From Demequina lignilytica (GTDB taxonomy: Bacteria > Actinomycetota > Actinomycetes > Actinomycetales > Demequinaceae), in contig NZ_JAUHPX010000002.1 in assembly GCF_030418305.1 (NCBI RefSeq), positions 1 through 64,000 of the forward strand: a DNA stretch of 64,000 nucleotides. Reading direction: 5' to 3'. The position numbers were made by a program, and so were the translations under genes. How positions within the stretch are numbered: position 1 is the stretch's first letter; each line of letters opens with the position of its first letter. The notes below the pieces were generated by a model. The model made no database searches and was not told where the DNA came from. It saw nothing but the letters and a program-made list of their open reading frames with translations. Positions 51,746 to 55,766 of the stretch are shown here, in pieces.

Positions 51746-51889
51746 TCAGTCCGGGACCTGCGTGTCCTCGCCTCCGGGTGGCATGTCGGCGGCCTCCGGT
51801 CGCCGGCTGAGGAACATGATCGAGGCCACCAGCCCGCCCCAGATCACGACCATCACCACGACCATCAGGGTCATCGCCGCGGCGCTCAT
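51746..51889 (-). CDS. metS: Methionine/alanine import small subunit
   Basis: 47 residues: MSAAAMTLMVVVMVVIWGGL leads into one membrane helix (about residues 6-27), then a charged tail SRRPEAADMPPGG. Size, topology and position directly after an NSS-family transporter match MetS of Corynebacterium glutamicum, needed for MetP function. It overlaps the metP stop by four bases (ATGA), so expression is coupled. Confidence 0.82.
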   Translation of the reverse strand: MSAAAMTLMVVVMVVIWGGLVASIMFLSRRPEAADMPPGGEDTQVPD

Positions 51890-53484
51890 GACGCGCTCCC
51901 CTCGACCGGCGCATCGTCCCTCCCGGGCGGCAGCCCCAGCTGCTGACGGGTCGGCCACGGCCGGAAGTGCACGATGTCCCGCCGCCACCTGAGCCACGGC
52001 ATCACCAGTGCCGCCGCCAGCAGGAACGCCGCGGTGCCCCACCCGAAGATCGCCAGGTAGGACGTGGGGTAGCCCTCGTAGCCGTCGCGCGCGAGAGAGA
52101 CGGCCTTGGTCGCGAACATGTAGATCAGCAGCACGGACACGGCGTTGACCAGCACCAGCCACCACGTGCCGAGCTTGAGGGTCGACACGGCGCTGAGGTG
52201 CCGCTGCAGCTCGCGGGAGCGACCCCCGAACCAGAGGGCGGCCGCGATCATCGCGATGGCGCCGGCCACGATCCCGAGCTGGTTCGACCACTGGTCCACC
52301 ACGTCGAGCAGGTACAGGCCCGTGGTGGTGCCGAAGCCGATGATGGACAGCACCGCGGAGACCACGCCGACCGCGACCGCGGAGCCCCGCGGGTGGAGGC
52401 CGAACTTGTCCTGCAGCGCCGCGGAGATGGTCTGCATGACGGAGATCAACGAGGTGAGCCCGGCGACCACCAGCGATCCGAAGAACAGCGCTCCGAACAA
52501 CGGCCCGCCCGGCATCTGCGCGATCACCGCGGGGAAGGTCACGAAGGACAGGATGGGCCCGGCGAGGCCGTCGAGCTCCGCGACGGGGACGTCCTGCTGG
52601 TGCGCGAGGAAGCCGACGGTGGCGAACACGCCGATGCCCGCGAGGACCTCGAAGGAGCTGTTGCCGAAGGCGATCACCAGGCCCGGCGAGGTGATGTTGG
52701 AGCGGCGACGGCGGTACGACGCGTAGGTCAGCATCACGCCGTAGGCGAGCGAGAGGGAGAAGAAGATCTGACCGTAGGCGGCGATCCACACGTTCGGGTC
52801 GGTCAGCGCGCTGAAGTCGGGGGTGAAGAGCGCGTCGATGCCGTCCGCCGCGCCGGGCAGGGTGAGCGCGCGCACCACGAGGATGCCGAAGGTCGCCACG
52901 AGCAGCGGGATGCCGATCACGTTGAGCCGCTCGACGCCGTTGTGCAGGCCGAGCGCGAGCACCACGATGGTGATGATCCAGATCGCCGCGAGGGGGATCA
53001 GGACATGGGGCACGAAGCTCAGGCTGACGGTGCCGGCCTCGCCCAGCTGGAGGTACTCGCCGGTGAAGAAGCCCGCAGGGTCGTCCTTGTAGGCCAGGGT
53101 GAAGCTGAAGAAGAAGTAGCTGAGCGCCCAGGCGATCACGGCCGTGTAGTACAGGCCGATCACGAAGCAGATGGCCACGTGGAACCAGCCGACGCCCTCC
53201 GCGCGCCTGTGCACGCGGCGCATCGCGAGCGGCGACGAGCCACGGAAGCGGTGGCCGATCGCGTTCTCGAGGAACAGGATCGGGATGCCGGCGGTGAGCA
53301 GGGCCACCACGTAGGGGATCATGAACGCTCCCCCGCCGTTGTCGTAGGCCTCGCCGGGGAAGCGCCAGATGTTGCCCAGACCCACCGCGGAGCCGATCGC
53401 GGCGAGGATGAACGCGGTCTGGCCGGACCAGTGCTCGCGCTTCTCGTGGGTGTGCGGTGCTGCGGCTTCAGGCTGGTCGCTCAT
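51886..53484 (-). CDS. metP: NSS-family sodium-dependent methionine/alanine transporter
   Basis: 532 residues with about 11-12 membrane helices. The NSS signature GSAVGLGNIWRFPGEAYDNG is near residue 30, including the substrate/Na+-binding unwound helix. Partner metS follows. GGGGAGG precedes the ATG; TAGCGT (53517-53522) is a -10 with a short leader, and no riboswitch lies on this side. It is divergent from a SAM-IV-like riboswitch, strengthening the methionine assignment over other amino acids. Confidence 0.85.
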   Translation of the reverse strand: MSDQPEAAAPHTHEKREHWSGQTAFILAAIGSAVGLGNIWRFPGEAYDNGGGAFMIPYVVALLTAGIPILFLENAIGHRFRGSSPLAMRRVHRRAEGVGWFHVAICFVIGLYYTAVIAWALSYFFFSFTLAYKDDPAGFFTGEYLQLGEAGTVSLSFVPHVLIPLAAIWIITIVVLALGLHNGVERLNVIGIPLLVATFGILVVRALTLPGAADGIDALFTPDFSALTDPNVWIAAYGQIFFSLSLAYGVMLTYASYRRRRSNITSPGLVIAFGNSSFEVLAGIGVFATVGFLAHQQDVPVAELDGLAGPILSFVTFPAVIAQMPGGPLFGALFFGSLVVAGLTSLISVMQTISAALQDKFGLHPRGSAVAVGVVSAVLSIIGFGTTTGLYLLDVVDQWSNQLGIVAGAIAMIAAALWFGGRSRELQRHLSAVSTLKLGTWWLVLVNAVSVLLIYMFATKAVSLARDGYEGYPTSYLAIFGWGTAAFLLAAALVMPWLRWRRDIVHFRPWPTRQQLGLPPGRDDAPVEGSAS

Positions 53485-53591
53485 GGGTGCCTCCCCGTGC
53501 TGGCGCTACGGAGATCACGCTAGTGCCAGGCAGGTCCCGGTGCAGGGCGGCGAGGTCCCGGGCCCGCGAGCCCGATGTCGGCGTCGGCCGC

Positions 53592-53708
53592 TACAGTCGG
53601 GAGTGGATCACGAAGCCTGGCCTCAAGCCCTCCAGCCGGCCAGCTGGCAACCGCGTCCCGACACGGTGCCCCTGGAGGAAGATCCGCCGCGCGTCGACCG
53701 GCGCGCGG
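53592..53708 (+). promoter_or_regulatory. SAM-IV-like riboswitch with its promoter
   Basis: TACAGT (53592-53597) is the -10; the RNA starts near 53604. P1 pairs GGATC (53605-53609) with GATCC (53681-53685). P2 is CTGGC/GCCAG, P3 GGCAACCG/CGGTGCC. The P2 loop CCTCCAG (53629-53635) complements CTGGAGG (53672-53678), the 7-bp pseudoknot of the SAM-I/SAM-IV fold. The core CTGGCAACC and CGGTGCC match these classes. Hairpin CCGCGCG/CGCGCGG (53687-53708) outside P1 is SAM-IV-like and precedes GAAGGAG by about 15 bases. Confidence 0.85.
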
Positions 53709-53736
53709 AAGGACGGATTCTCTGAAGGAGAGAACC

Positions 53737-54153
53737 ATGGCTGACGCCACCCTGCCCCCGTGCATCCTGTCGCAGGCCGGGCACGCCCTGCACCCGATCC
53801 AGCTGCGGCTCGCGCGGAACGCGGCGACCGAGATCGAGTACGAGCTGCTCGGTGAGCATCCCGACGGCATCTACGTGGTGCGCCGCGATGCGACGTCCCC
53901 CGTCGAGACCTGGTGCATGCACCAGCAGTGGCGGGATGTGGCCCGCCGCGCGTTCCGGGCGGGCGTCACCGAGGTGATCGACCACACGCATTCGCTCGCC
54001 ACCATCAACGGCACGGCCGTCTCGTACACCACCCCCGAGCACTGGCGTGAATGCCCGCCGCCCGGGGAGCTCACCCCGTGGGAGCGCGGCTTCCTCACAC
54101 GCGCCGAGCTCGCCGCATACCTGCGGGCGCGGAACGCGGGCGACGGGTCCTGA
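53737..54153 (+). CDS. Uncharacterised protein behind a SAM riboswitch
   Basis: 138 residues, soluble, no signal peptide or membrane helix. Begins MADATLPPCILSQAGHALHP; a Tyr/Val strand-rich middle (EIEYELLGEHPDGIYVVRRD), VETWCMHQQWRDVARRAF, then VIDHTHSLATINGTAVSYTT and the C-terminal helix LTRAELAAYLRARN. Three cysteines and several His could bind metal. I recognise no family. GAAGGAG is six bases before the ATG. Monocistronic: a long palindrome follows. The riboswitch and divergent metPS suggest a role in methionine or SAM metabolism. Confidence 0.75.
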   Translation: MADATLPPCILSQAGHALHPIQLRLARNAATEIEYELLGEHPDGIYVVRRDATSPVETWCMHQQWRDVARRAFRAGVTEVIDHTHSLATINGTAVSYTTPEHWRECPPPGELTPWERGFLTRAELAAYLRARNAGDGS

Positions 54154-54171: not shown

Positions 54172-54217
54172 AGTGCACGAGGGTACGGAATCGATCGATT
54201 CCGTACCCTCGTGCACT
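54172..54217. terminator. 46-base perfect palindrome between convergent genes
   Basis: Arms of 23 bases (54172-54194 and 54195-54217) are exact complements with no spacer; each arm begins AGTGCACGAGGGTACGG. It lies between the 138-residue protein and the DEAD-box helicase, convergent, so a bidirectional terminator is the simplest reading. Confidence 0.7.
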
Positions 54218-54242: not shown

Positions 54243-55766
54243 TCAGCGACCGCGGCGGCGGCCCCCACCGGCGGAGAACGATGCGGCGCTCGAGTGACCG
54301 CCGGCGTGGCGGTTGCGCGCGGCGCCGCCGGAGCGACCGGCACCGGAGCCGCTGCCGCCGTTGCCGCCCGAGCGACCGGCACCCTGGCCCTGGCGCGAGC
54401 CCGCATCCTGACGACCCGGACGGCCGTCGTTGGACCGAGCGTTGCCGGCACCCTGGCGGGCGGGACGCGCATCGTTCTGGTGCTGGCGACCGCGGCCGCC
54501 CTGGCGGGCGTCGTTCTGGTGCTGCGCGCCGCCGCGGCGGCGACCGCCGCCGCCGGACTGGCGACGCGGCTGGTCGGCGACCGGCGCCGGGGCGACCTTC
54601 GGAGCGACCTCGCCGATCAGCGCGACCACCTGCGAGGAGGACGCGTTGACCGCCTCGGGCCTCACCGAGATCTTCGCGCGGCTGAGCAGCTGCGCGGTGT
54701 CGCGCTTCTGCTCGGGCAGGACCAGGGTGACCACGTCGCCCTCCGAGCCCGCACGCGCGGTGCGGCCCGAGCGGTGGAGGTACGCCTTGTGCTCGGCCGG
54801 CGGATCCACGTGGACCACGAGCTCGATGCCGTCGACGTGGACGCCGCGGGCGGCCACATCGGTGGCGACCAGCACCTTCGCCTCGCCCGCCGCGAAGGCG
54901 GCGAGGTTGCGGTCGCGGGCGTTCTGGGACAGGTTGCCGTGCAGGTCGACCGCGGGGATGCCGTCGGCCGTGAGCTGCTTCGCCATCTTCTTGGCCTGGT
55001 GCTTGGTGCGCATGAACAGCACACGGCGACCCGTGCCGGAGGCGAGCGCGTGGACCACGTCCCGCTTCGCGCCGGCGTCCGCGACGTGGAACACGTGGTG
55101 CGTCATCGCCTCGACCGGACTCTCGGCCGAGTCGACCGAGTGGGTGACGGGCTGGTCGAGGAACTTCTTCACCAGGGTGTTCACGCCGTTGTCGAGCGTG
55201 GCGGAGAACAGCATGCGCTGGCCGCGACGCGGGGTCGCGGTCATGATGCGGGTCACCCCCGGGAGGAAGCCGAGGTCGGCCATGTGGTCCGCCTCGTCGA
55301 GCACCGTGAGCTCGATCTGGTCGAGGGAGACGATGCGCTGCTTCATCAGGTCCTCGAGGCGACCCGGGCACGCCACGACGATGTCGACGCCGCGGCTGAG
55401 CGCCTGCTCCTGGCGGCGCTGGTTGACGCCGCCGAAGATGGTGGTGGTGGTGAGGCCCACGGACGCCGCGAGCGGCGCGATGACCGCGTCGATCTGGGTG
55501 GCGAGCTCGCGGGTCGGGCACAGGATGAGCGCGCGGGGGCGGCCGGCCGCGGCGCGACCCTTGCGGTTCATGAGGCGCGCGACCACCGGGAGCGAGAACG
55601 CGAGGGTCTTGCCGGAGCCGGTGCGGCCGCGGCCGAGCACGTCGCGGCCCGCGAGCGAGTCGGGAAGCGTGGACTCCTGGATGGGGAACGCGGACGTCTT
55701 GCCGTCGCGCTCGAGGACGGTGGTGAGCTGCGTGGGAACGCCGAGCTCGGAGAAGGTCTGGGTCAC
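54243..55766 (-). CDS. DEAD-box RNA helicase (RhlE-type)
   Basis: 507 residues. Motifs: Q motif region FPIQESTLP, I GRGRTGSGKT, Ia PTRELATQI, II LDEADHM, III SATLD, VI HRSGRTARAG. The C-terminal 130 residues are a Gly/Arg/Gln-rich disordered tail with repeated QHQNDAR units, an RNA-binding feature. GTG start at 55766; AAAGG is upstream. A leader of about 215 bases suggests post-transcriptional or cold-shock control. Probably acts in ribosome assembly or RNA decay. Confidence 0.93.
   Translation of the reverse strand: MTQTFSELGVPTQLTTVLERDGKTSAFPIQESTLPDSLAGRDVLGRGRTGSGKTLAFSLPVVARLMNRKGRAAAGRPRALILCPTRELATQIDAVIAPLAASVGLTTTTIFGGVNQRRQEQALSRGVDIVVACPGRLEDLMKQRIVSLDQIELTVLDEADHMADLGFLPGVTRIMTATPRRGQRMLFSATLDNGVNTLVKKFLDQPVTHSVDSAESPVEAMTHHVFHVADAGAKRDVVHALASGTGRRVLFMRTKHQAKKMAKQLTADGIPAVDLHGNLSQNARDRNLAAFAAGEAKVLVATDVAARGVHVDGIELVVHVDPPAEHKAYLHRSGRTARAGSEGDVVTLVLPEQKRDTAQLLSRAKISVRPEAVNASSSQVVALIGEVAPKVAPAPVADQPRRQSGGGGRRRGGAQHQNDARQGGRGRQHQNDARPARQGAGNARSNDGRPGRQDAGSRQGQGAGRSGGNGGSGSGAGRSGGAARNRHAGGHSSAASFSAGGGRRRGR

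Follow-up and report, generated by a model that had tools for sequence, protein, structure and literature searches.

A subtype of the SAM-IV riboswitch precedes small orphan genes in Demequina and in other actinobacterial families

In the window, the 64,000-nucleotide stretch of Demequina lignilytica DNA analyzed here, the leader of a 138-codon orphan gene was found to contain a SAM-IV riboswitch aptamer, and the pairing of this aptamer with a gene of the same protein family, which we refer to as family 1, recurred at 25 loci. Tentatively, and with a likelihood close to even, we read the leader as belonging to a SAM-IV subtype that turns off the translation of one small gene at high SAM, the product of that gene being an accessory factor in the low-SAM state, with metal, nucleic acid or both as possible binding partners. 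Codes beginning with f and g are labels for taxonomic families and genera, respectively.

A covariance search of the whole 64-kb window with the Rfam models placed SAM-IV (RF00634) at 53606–53719 of the forward strand with 63.9 bits against a gathering cut-off of 38 (E = 5.5e-9, or 7.8e-11 when 901 bases were searched), the sole Rfam match above the gathering score in the window. The SAM-I/IV variant model (RF01725) did no better at 53606–53719, SAM-IV being kept as the best of the overlapping clan matches. The original prediction, made from the letters alone, of a SAM-IV-like leader with P1, P2, P3, a 7-bp pseudoknot and an extra hairpin outside P1 therefore held both for the class of the RNA and for its parts. 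P1 is formed by 53606–53609 with 53681–53684, P2 by 53614–53621 with 53639–53645, and pseudoknot 1 by CCTCCAG (53629–53635) with CTGGAGG (53672–53678); P3, with the conserved core letters GGCAACC and GGTGCC, occupies 53646–53670, and the P5 hairpin lies outside P1 at 53687–53708. Pseudoknot 2 (53654–53657 with 53712–53715), which the earlier list of elements had omitted, is complete in the window's own sequence. The element TGTCGG ... TACAGT at 53576–53597 on the same strand may be promoter-like, with a spacing unusual for sigma-70. Of 19 upstream stretches listed for Demequina, 16 were counted by eye as having TGTC with TAnnnT-like letters some 10 bases after it, while the regular expression used in a script matched none of them. 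A GTGTCGG-like motif was also seen upstream of several f19 members.

Pairing in these elements was then measured on an alignment of 22 leaders (21 distinct), comprising 19 of the 20 SAM-IV sites of the genus, with that of genome G037 set aside, and three leaders from other families. Standard pairs filled 94.3% of the 732 cells versus 87.5% in shuffles, and sliding the partners by 1–3 bases brought pairing down to 29–46%. Changes on both sides were found at 19 of the 35 pairs, and none of 500 shuffles reached the observed values for pairing and covariation. Pseudoknot 1 was paired in all 21 distinct leaders (100%) and carried compensatory changes at four of its seven positions. P1 was likewise 100% paired (two of four pairs covarying), and the values for P2 and P5 were 98.6% (six of seven) and 86% (five of seven). 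Pseudoknot 2 was paired in 76% of cells, its fourth pair being broken in 14 of the 21 leaders. As P3, although 100% paired, never varies, it is neutral as evidence. The core letters U3, G7, A8, A44, A45, GGUGCC and A77 were invariant across the 22 leaders, and G7, A8 and A77 were nearly so in a broader collection of 22 family-1 leaders, with G7 and A8 missing from the leader in genome G396. The residues given for the SAM-IV pocket are 2–4, 7–8, 63–65 and 77 in the cited paper's own numbering, which may differ from that of our alignment (PMC6890682). The window leader thus shares with RF00634 the stems P1, P2, P3 and P5, pseudoknot 1, the core letters and a score above the cut-off; it differs in belonging to a subtype that scores lower and in which, for the most part, an A-U pair closes P2 and P1 is GATC/GATC. 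It also precedes an orphan gene, whereas SAM-IV in M. avium precedes O-acetylhomoserine sulfhydrylase (PMC3774663).

The 3' end of the aptamer is followed, after 17 bases, by the start of the 138-codon gene (53737–54153, forward strand; 138 residues plus stop). Since the next gene downstream, a DEAD-box helicase gene (54243–55766, reverse strand; PF00270, E = 1.6e-40), is convergent, the switch controls one gene, in agreement with the single dedicated gene originally described. A perfect palindrome of 46 bases with 23-bp arms (54172–54217) lies between the convergent genes and is a possible two-way terminator for both. On the other side, the divergent neighbors are a metP-like gene for an SNF-family transporter (51886–53484, reverse strand; PF00209, E = 9.2e-110) and a metS-like gene for a small subunit, MaAIMP_sms (51746–51889, reverse strand; PF16951, E = 8.1e-9 for the 46 residues scanned, 51752–51889), which fits the metP-metS importer that had been named there. 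The window protein had no match in Pfam, NCBIfam or PADLOC, the 12 Demequina members of family 1 matched no family over the cut-off (best E = 0.055 in PHROGs and 0.082 in Pfam), and our literature search found no paper on family 1, so that the earlier description of a protein of no recognized family stands. Ka/Ks was 0.17–0.24 in three close pairs of Demequina relatives, with leader identities of 99–100% among the three relatives, and 0.32–0.47 in four pairs at greater distance, which are partly saturated and in two cases contain the window gene. Values of 0.11 and 0.24 were obtained for the pair from G136 and G304 and for a family-2 pair, respectively. These values identify 53737–54153 as a real gene under purifying selection, and a spurious open reading frame was rejected on the basis of the close pairs.

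Within the genus, a profile scan with a closer alignment (A3; four loci) identified relatives in Demequina flava, silvatica, phytophila and maris. By single-sequence search, a relative was found in 10 of 44 Demequina genomes, with SAM-IV upstream in all ten; identity to the window protein within the genus was 31–45%. The genus-wide RNA search, run like the order-wide one with stricter filters at which weak matches are lost, gave 20 SAM-IV sites in 19 of the 44 genomes. The genes behind these sites belong to family 1 (12, two of them recognized by motif and profile only), to a second family that we refer to as family 2 (seven) or to neither (one, that of G037, picked by eye). All 20 sites precede small orphan genes, and none of these looks like a sulfur gene. 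As a SAM-I riboswitch was found in none of the 44 genomes under similarly strict filters, the orphans are the sole genes of the genus for which a SAM-IV or SAM-I switch was found upstream. A second Demequina paralogue of 97 residues (L039, L041, L044 and L045) matches the family-1 profile weakly, lacks SAM-IV at all four loci and adjoins a gene that resembles, by eye, a sodium/proton antiporter.

Profile comparison indicated that family 2 is unrelated to family 1 (probability 1.4%). Its seven members had no Pfam match over the cut-off (best E = 0.067), nor did the G037 protein, and outside Demequina no member was found in 297 genomes of the order, save one weak hit with stops. H14, C89, C94 and H117 are invariant in family 2. 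Its predicted model, built from seven rows (pLDDT 84.0, pTM 0.74), had OB-fold single-strand-binding proteins as its top structural matches (SOSS-B1, Z = 6.6; PriB, Z = 6.4; SSB), at scores below the kinship range. Family 2 shares with SSB, PriB and SOSS-B1 the order of strands and helices and a weak structural match, and also looks OB-like in this model.

Beyond the genus, a family-1 profile (A4) found hits in 57 of 396 genomes of the order and in 31 of 394 genomes of the class at an E-value of 0.01, the weakest of which (E of about 1e-3 to 1e-2) are probably due to chance. Three Demequina hits of this profile in the order search were the 97-residue paralogue. We scanned 54 family-1 loci for SAM-IV, setting aside the profile hits L139–L146 (E = 8e-4 or weaker), and counted as linked those with SAM-IV just upstream on the same strand, i.e. 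with a gap of up to about 120 bases to the chosen start. Twenty-five loci from nine family codes were linked: 12 in f1, four in f3, three in f6 and one each in f9, f13, f17, f22, f23 and f45, the match at the f23 locus (L138) being barely above the cut-off at 38.9 bits. The homologues therefore do co-occur with the leader, as the original prediction had proposed, in 12 members from Demequina and in 13 from other families, and do not consistently lack it. The other 29 scanned loci were leaderless (25 in f19, two in f7 and one each in f45 and f46), and in 11 of them, chosen from the 29, no SAM-like RNA was detected at an E-value of 1 or better. Given these 29 loci and the four leaderless loci of the paralogue, the function of the family need not depend on SAM. 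No conserved neighbors across families were seen among the neighbors displayed for 24 loci with wider flanks, where genes were called by script and named by eye. Family 1 is a broad, fast-evolving actinobacterial family that is not peculiar to this genome.

Proteins of family 1 have about 95–160 residues and share an N-terminal motif, C-x5-(P)GH-x2-H-x-I-Q, which in the window protein reads C9...G15H16..H19.IQ and is followed by a predicted OB-like barrel at residues ~29–96, by W59..H62 and by C106. In the family-1 alignment (A7, from which L129, L133, L137, L170 and L174 were omitted for want of a clean frame, together with the near-copies L161–L164), G15 and H16 are invariant and C9 and W59 nearly invariant. 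Among the candidate ligands of a Cys2His2-type metal site, with L119 read by hand, H16 was counted in 45 of 45 members, C9 in 44 and H19 in 39; the W..H histidine is missing in most members of the f19 genus g29. A second Cys stands either 10–12 residues before the GH or ~78–128 residues after it: downstream only in 22 members, upstream only in 20, in both places in two and in neither in one (n = 45, L119 corrected by hand). The Fisher value for this swap was 1.6e-8, calculated before the correction of L119 and with kinship ignored. The tree has three changes of Cys position and four of SAM-IV presence, and an independent-pairs test for the swap is unable to reach significance. Because the tree allows just three changes of Cys position, the swap is only suggestive and not proof; such a swap would suit a metal ligand that has changed place.

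The model of the window protein, predicted from 45 aligned members, has a mean pLDDT of 91.1 and a pTM of 0.78, with the order helix, three strands, helix, three strands, C-terminal helices (strands 33–41, 44–49 and 57–60, helix 63–74, strands 79–82, 87–90 and 93–96), to be compared with the five strands of an OB barrel and its helix between strands 3 and 4. The best VIA rows were mostly OB-like barrels (eIF5A, EF-P, HEX-1, ModE and SilF), weak matches with Z-scores of at most 5.0 over 55–70 residues, and a structural Z near 5 can reflect mere arrangement. Foldseek with the window model yielded neither a PDB nor a viral match at an E-value of 0.001 or better, and a search of PDB sequences with profile A8 found no relative (best E = 0.45). 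Family 1 shares its predicted strand and helix order and a weak structural match with OB-fold proteins such as the eIF5A/EF-P barrels, ModE and SilF, but no sequence relation to them was found, and the Cys/His motif of family 1 lies N-terminal to the barrel. These weak matches to the predicted model suggest that the family-1 fold is a small OB-like barrel. The most likely role of the protein would be to bind zinc or copper as a thiophilic metal, nucleic acid, or both, and to act as an accessory factor in the low-SAM state rather than in catalysis. The evidence for metal binding consists of the conserved Cys and His residues.

The segment GAAGATCCG at 53678–53686, which holds the 3' strand of P1, could pair instead with CGGATTCTC at 53714–53722 (anti-P1), giving a proposed switch that spans 53678–53722 of the forward strand. 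Anti-P1 pairing is possible in all 12 family-1 Demequina leaders at -4.6 to -9.5 kcal/mol; the window value of -8.6 kcal/mol was reached by 29 of 2000 shuffles. In this control, which used simple letter shuffles of 16 leaders (the near-copies L006 and L007 were left out, as was L013, whose tail is too short), the anti-P1 energy was reached in 0.6–3.3% of 2000 shuffled tails for five family-1 leaders, those of the window, G015, G005, G023 and G026, and in 4–14% for the five others tested, and was at chance in two of the six family-2 leaders tested, so that the switch model applies unevenly across leaders. In addition, a hairpin TTCTCT/AGAGAA around the ribosome-binding site GAAGGAG (53718–53734, forward strand) was identified from fold energy and inspection. 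The tail folds at -3.6 kcal/mol or better in nine of the 12 family-1 Demequina leaders and, by inspection, the letters of anti-P1 may in eight pair instead into a hairpin over the ribosome-binding site. Binding of SAM would hold P1 and pseudoknot 2 in place, and the freed letters would then cover the ribosome-binding site; with SAM absent, anti-P1 pairing would leave the site open. We infer an OFF switch acting on translation, such that the protein would be made when SAM (methionine) is low, a proposal with its strongest support in the group to which the window leader belongs. Since the ribosome-binding-site hairpin is missing from some leaders, those leaders must work otherwise.

The low-SAM accessory factor that we favor was weighed against other readings. 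Family 1 could consist of copper- or zinc-handling proteins, metallochaperones or metal buffers that came under the control of SAM in most lineages. A Cys/Met-rich reading frame faces the family-1 gene on the opposite strand at 25 of 25 f19 loci (L118–L126, L128–L131, L134, L136, L160–L166, L170, L171 and L174), and the one copy tested matched cytosolic copper storage proteins (Csp; E = 4.2e-11); a CopC gene follows at locus L042, the second Cys stands before the motif or after the barrel and almost never in both places, and the weak structural matches include the silver-binding OB protein SilF (Z = 4.5). The copper neighborhood is, however, confined to a single lineage, the same script finding such a frame at none of the 14 loci outside f19 and Demequina, the 10 SAM-IV-linked ones among them included, and the Csp-like protein has no Pfam family. 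With the Cys swap amounting to three changes in the tree, beyond the reach of the independent-pairs test, and with H19 replaced in six and C9 in one of 45 members and the W..H histidine absent from most of g29, we regard this reading as doubtful; the f19 context, which may be a single event, nevertheless suggests metal handling. Somewhat bolder, and to be called unlikely, is an alarm for SAM depletion, in which a collapse of SAM, such as that caused by a SAM-destroying phage enzyme, would lead the switch to turn on interchangeable small effectors that target nucleic acids or hold back growth. Several small-protein types without visible relation do lie behind SAM-IV: family 1, family 2, a 'WxGF' type and the type of L108, of which families 1 and 2 were compared by profile. 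In genomes hand-chosen for a survey of downstream genes, most of them for low SAM-IV scores, SAM-IV is followed by orphan proteins of 140–270 residues at L095, L100, L104, L101, L103, L106, L107 and L112 (f7 and f19), several of which share a 'WxGF..EEALxWxR'-like start; those of L095, L101, L107 and L112 had no Pfam match above the cut-off. In four g37 (f6) genomes (L180 in G162, L181 in G312, L182 in G097 and L183 in G226), SAM-IV precedes a small gene and a PIN-like protein, possibly a SAM-controlled toxin-antitoxin pair. The arrangement resembles the VapC/FitB PIN toxin pairs, but the one PIN-like copy tested matched FitB weakly, if over its full length (E = 0.0022), neither of the two copies scanned had a PIN domain by Pfam, and no similarity to the window protein was seen. 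In G226, SAM-IV precedes two genes named by eye, one metY-like and one for a luciferase-like monooxygenase, as well as the PIN pair and family 1, so that these genes would respond to one signal together with the methionine genes. Fast divergence (31–45% identity within the genus) and differing neighborhoods also suit an alarm. Against it stand the purifying selection on family-1 genes in close pairs, the lack of a PADLOC match for the eight proteins tested, and the lack of a plasmid match for two queries and of a phage match for one further query. In its boldest form, in which the divergent SAM-IV controls not methionine genes but effectors acting on nucleic acids, ranging from OB-like metal binders of two or more unrelated families to PIN-nuclease pairs and further types, the reading is equally unlikely.

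The original prediction had offered a transporter regulator, a salvage enzyme or a SAM sink as the new member of methionine/SAM metabolism. A role in regulating methionine uptake through the divergent metPS genes could draw on their position in the window and on the metP-like genes, named by eye, that flank L187 (G026), L054, L055 and L056; among the neighbors displayed, however, no metP-like gene lies near the members from other families or near several Demequina members. As the metPS neighborhood is not conserved, such a regulator is weakly supported and very unlikely, and it was rejected as the main reading. Nothing in the small barrel model points to a salvage enzyme, a sulfur enzyme was rejected on the lack of a family and the small barrel, and the SAM sink found no support. 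What survives of the wider claim is the SAM-IV class, the dedicated orphan gene and their recurrent linkage, and not the link to metPS. It is also most improbable, in our judgment, that the variant aptamer has changed its ligand and no longer senses SAM. The genus sites score 43–84 bits versus 104–121 bits for the order sites listed, which are the best ones, and ligand switches within a SAM class are known, spermidine variants having changed letters that contact SAM (PMC10853860). Unlike in those variants, the core letters here are invariant in 22 leaders, and many of the differences sit in stems with compensatory change, so that SAM would remain the ligand. Finally, although no library tried yielded a family for the gene, that it is spurious or its association with the switch due to chance is already contradicted by Ka/Ks in close pairs and by the SAM-IV linkage in 25 loci, and has an almost negligible probability.

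SAM riboswitches are generally regarded as giving feedback control over the genes of methionine and sulfur metabolism. The unit of switch and orphan described here recurs across nine actinobacterial family codes and points to an unrecognized part of the low-SAM response. With every SAM-IV site found in Demequina preceding a small orphan gene, the genus offers an entry to a low-SAM response beyond the making of methionine, and family 1, with its recognizable motif, its confidently predicted barrel and its two contexts, the SAM switch and the copper-storage neighbor, provides a means of tracing the function.
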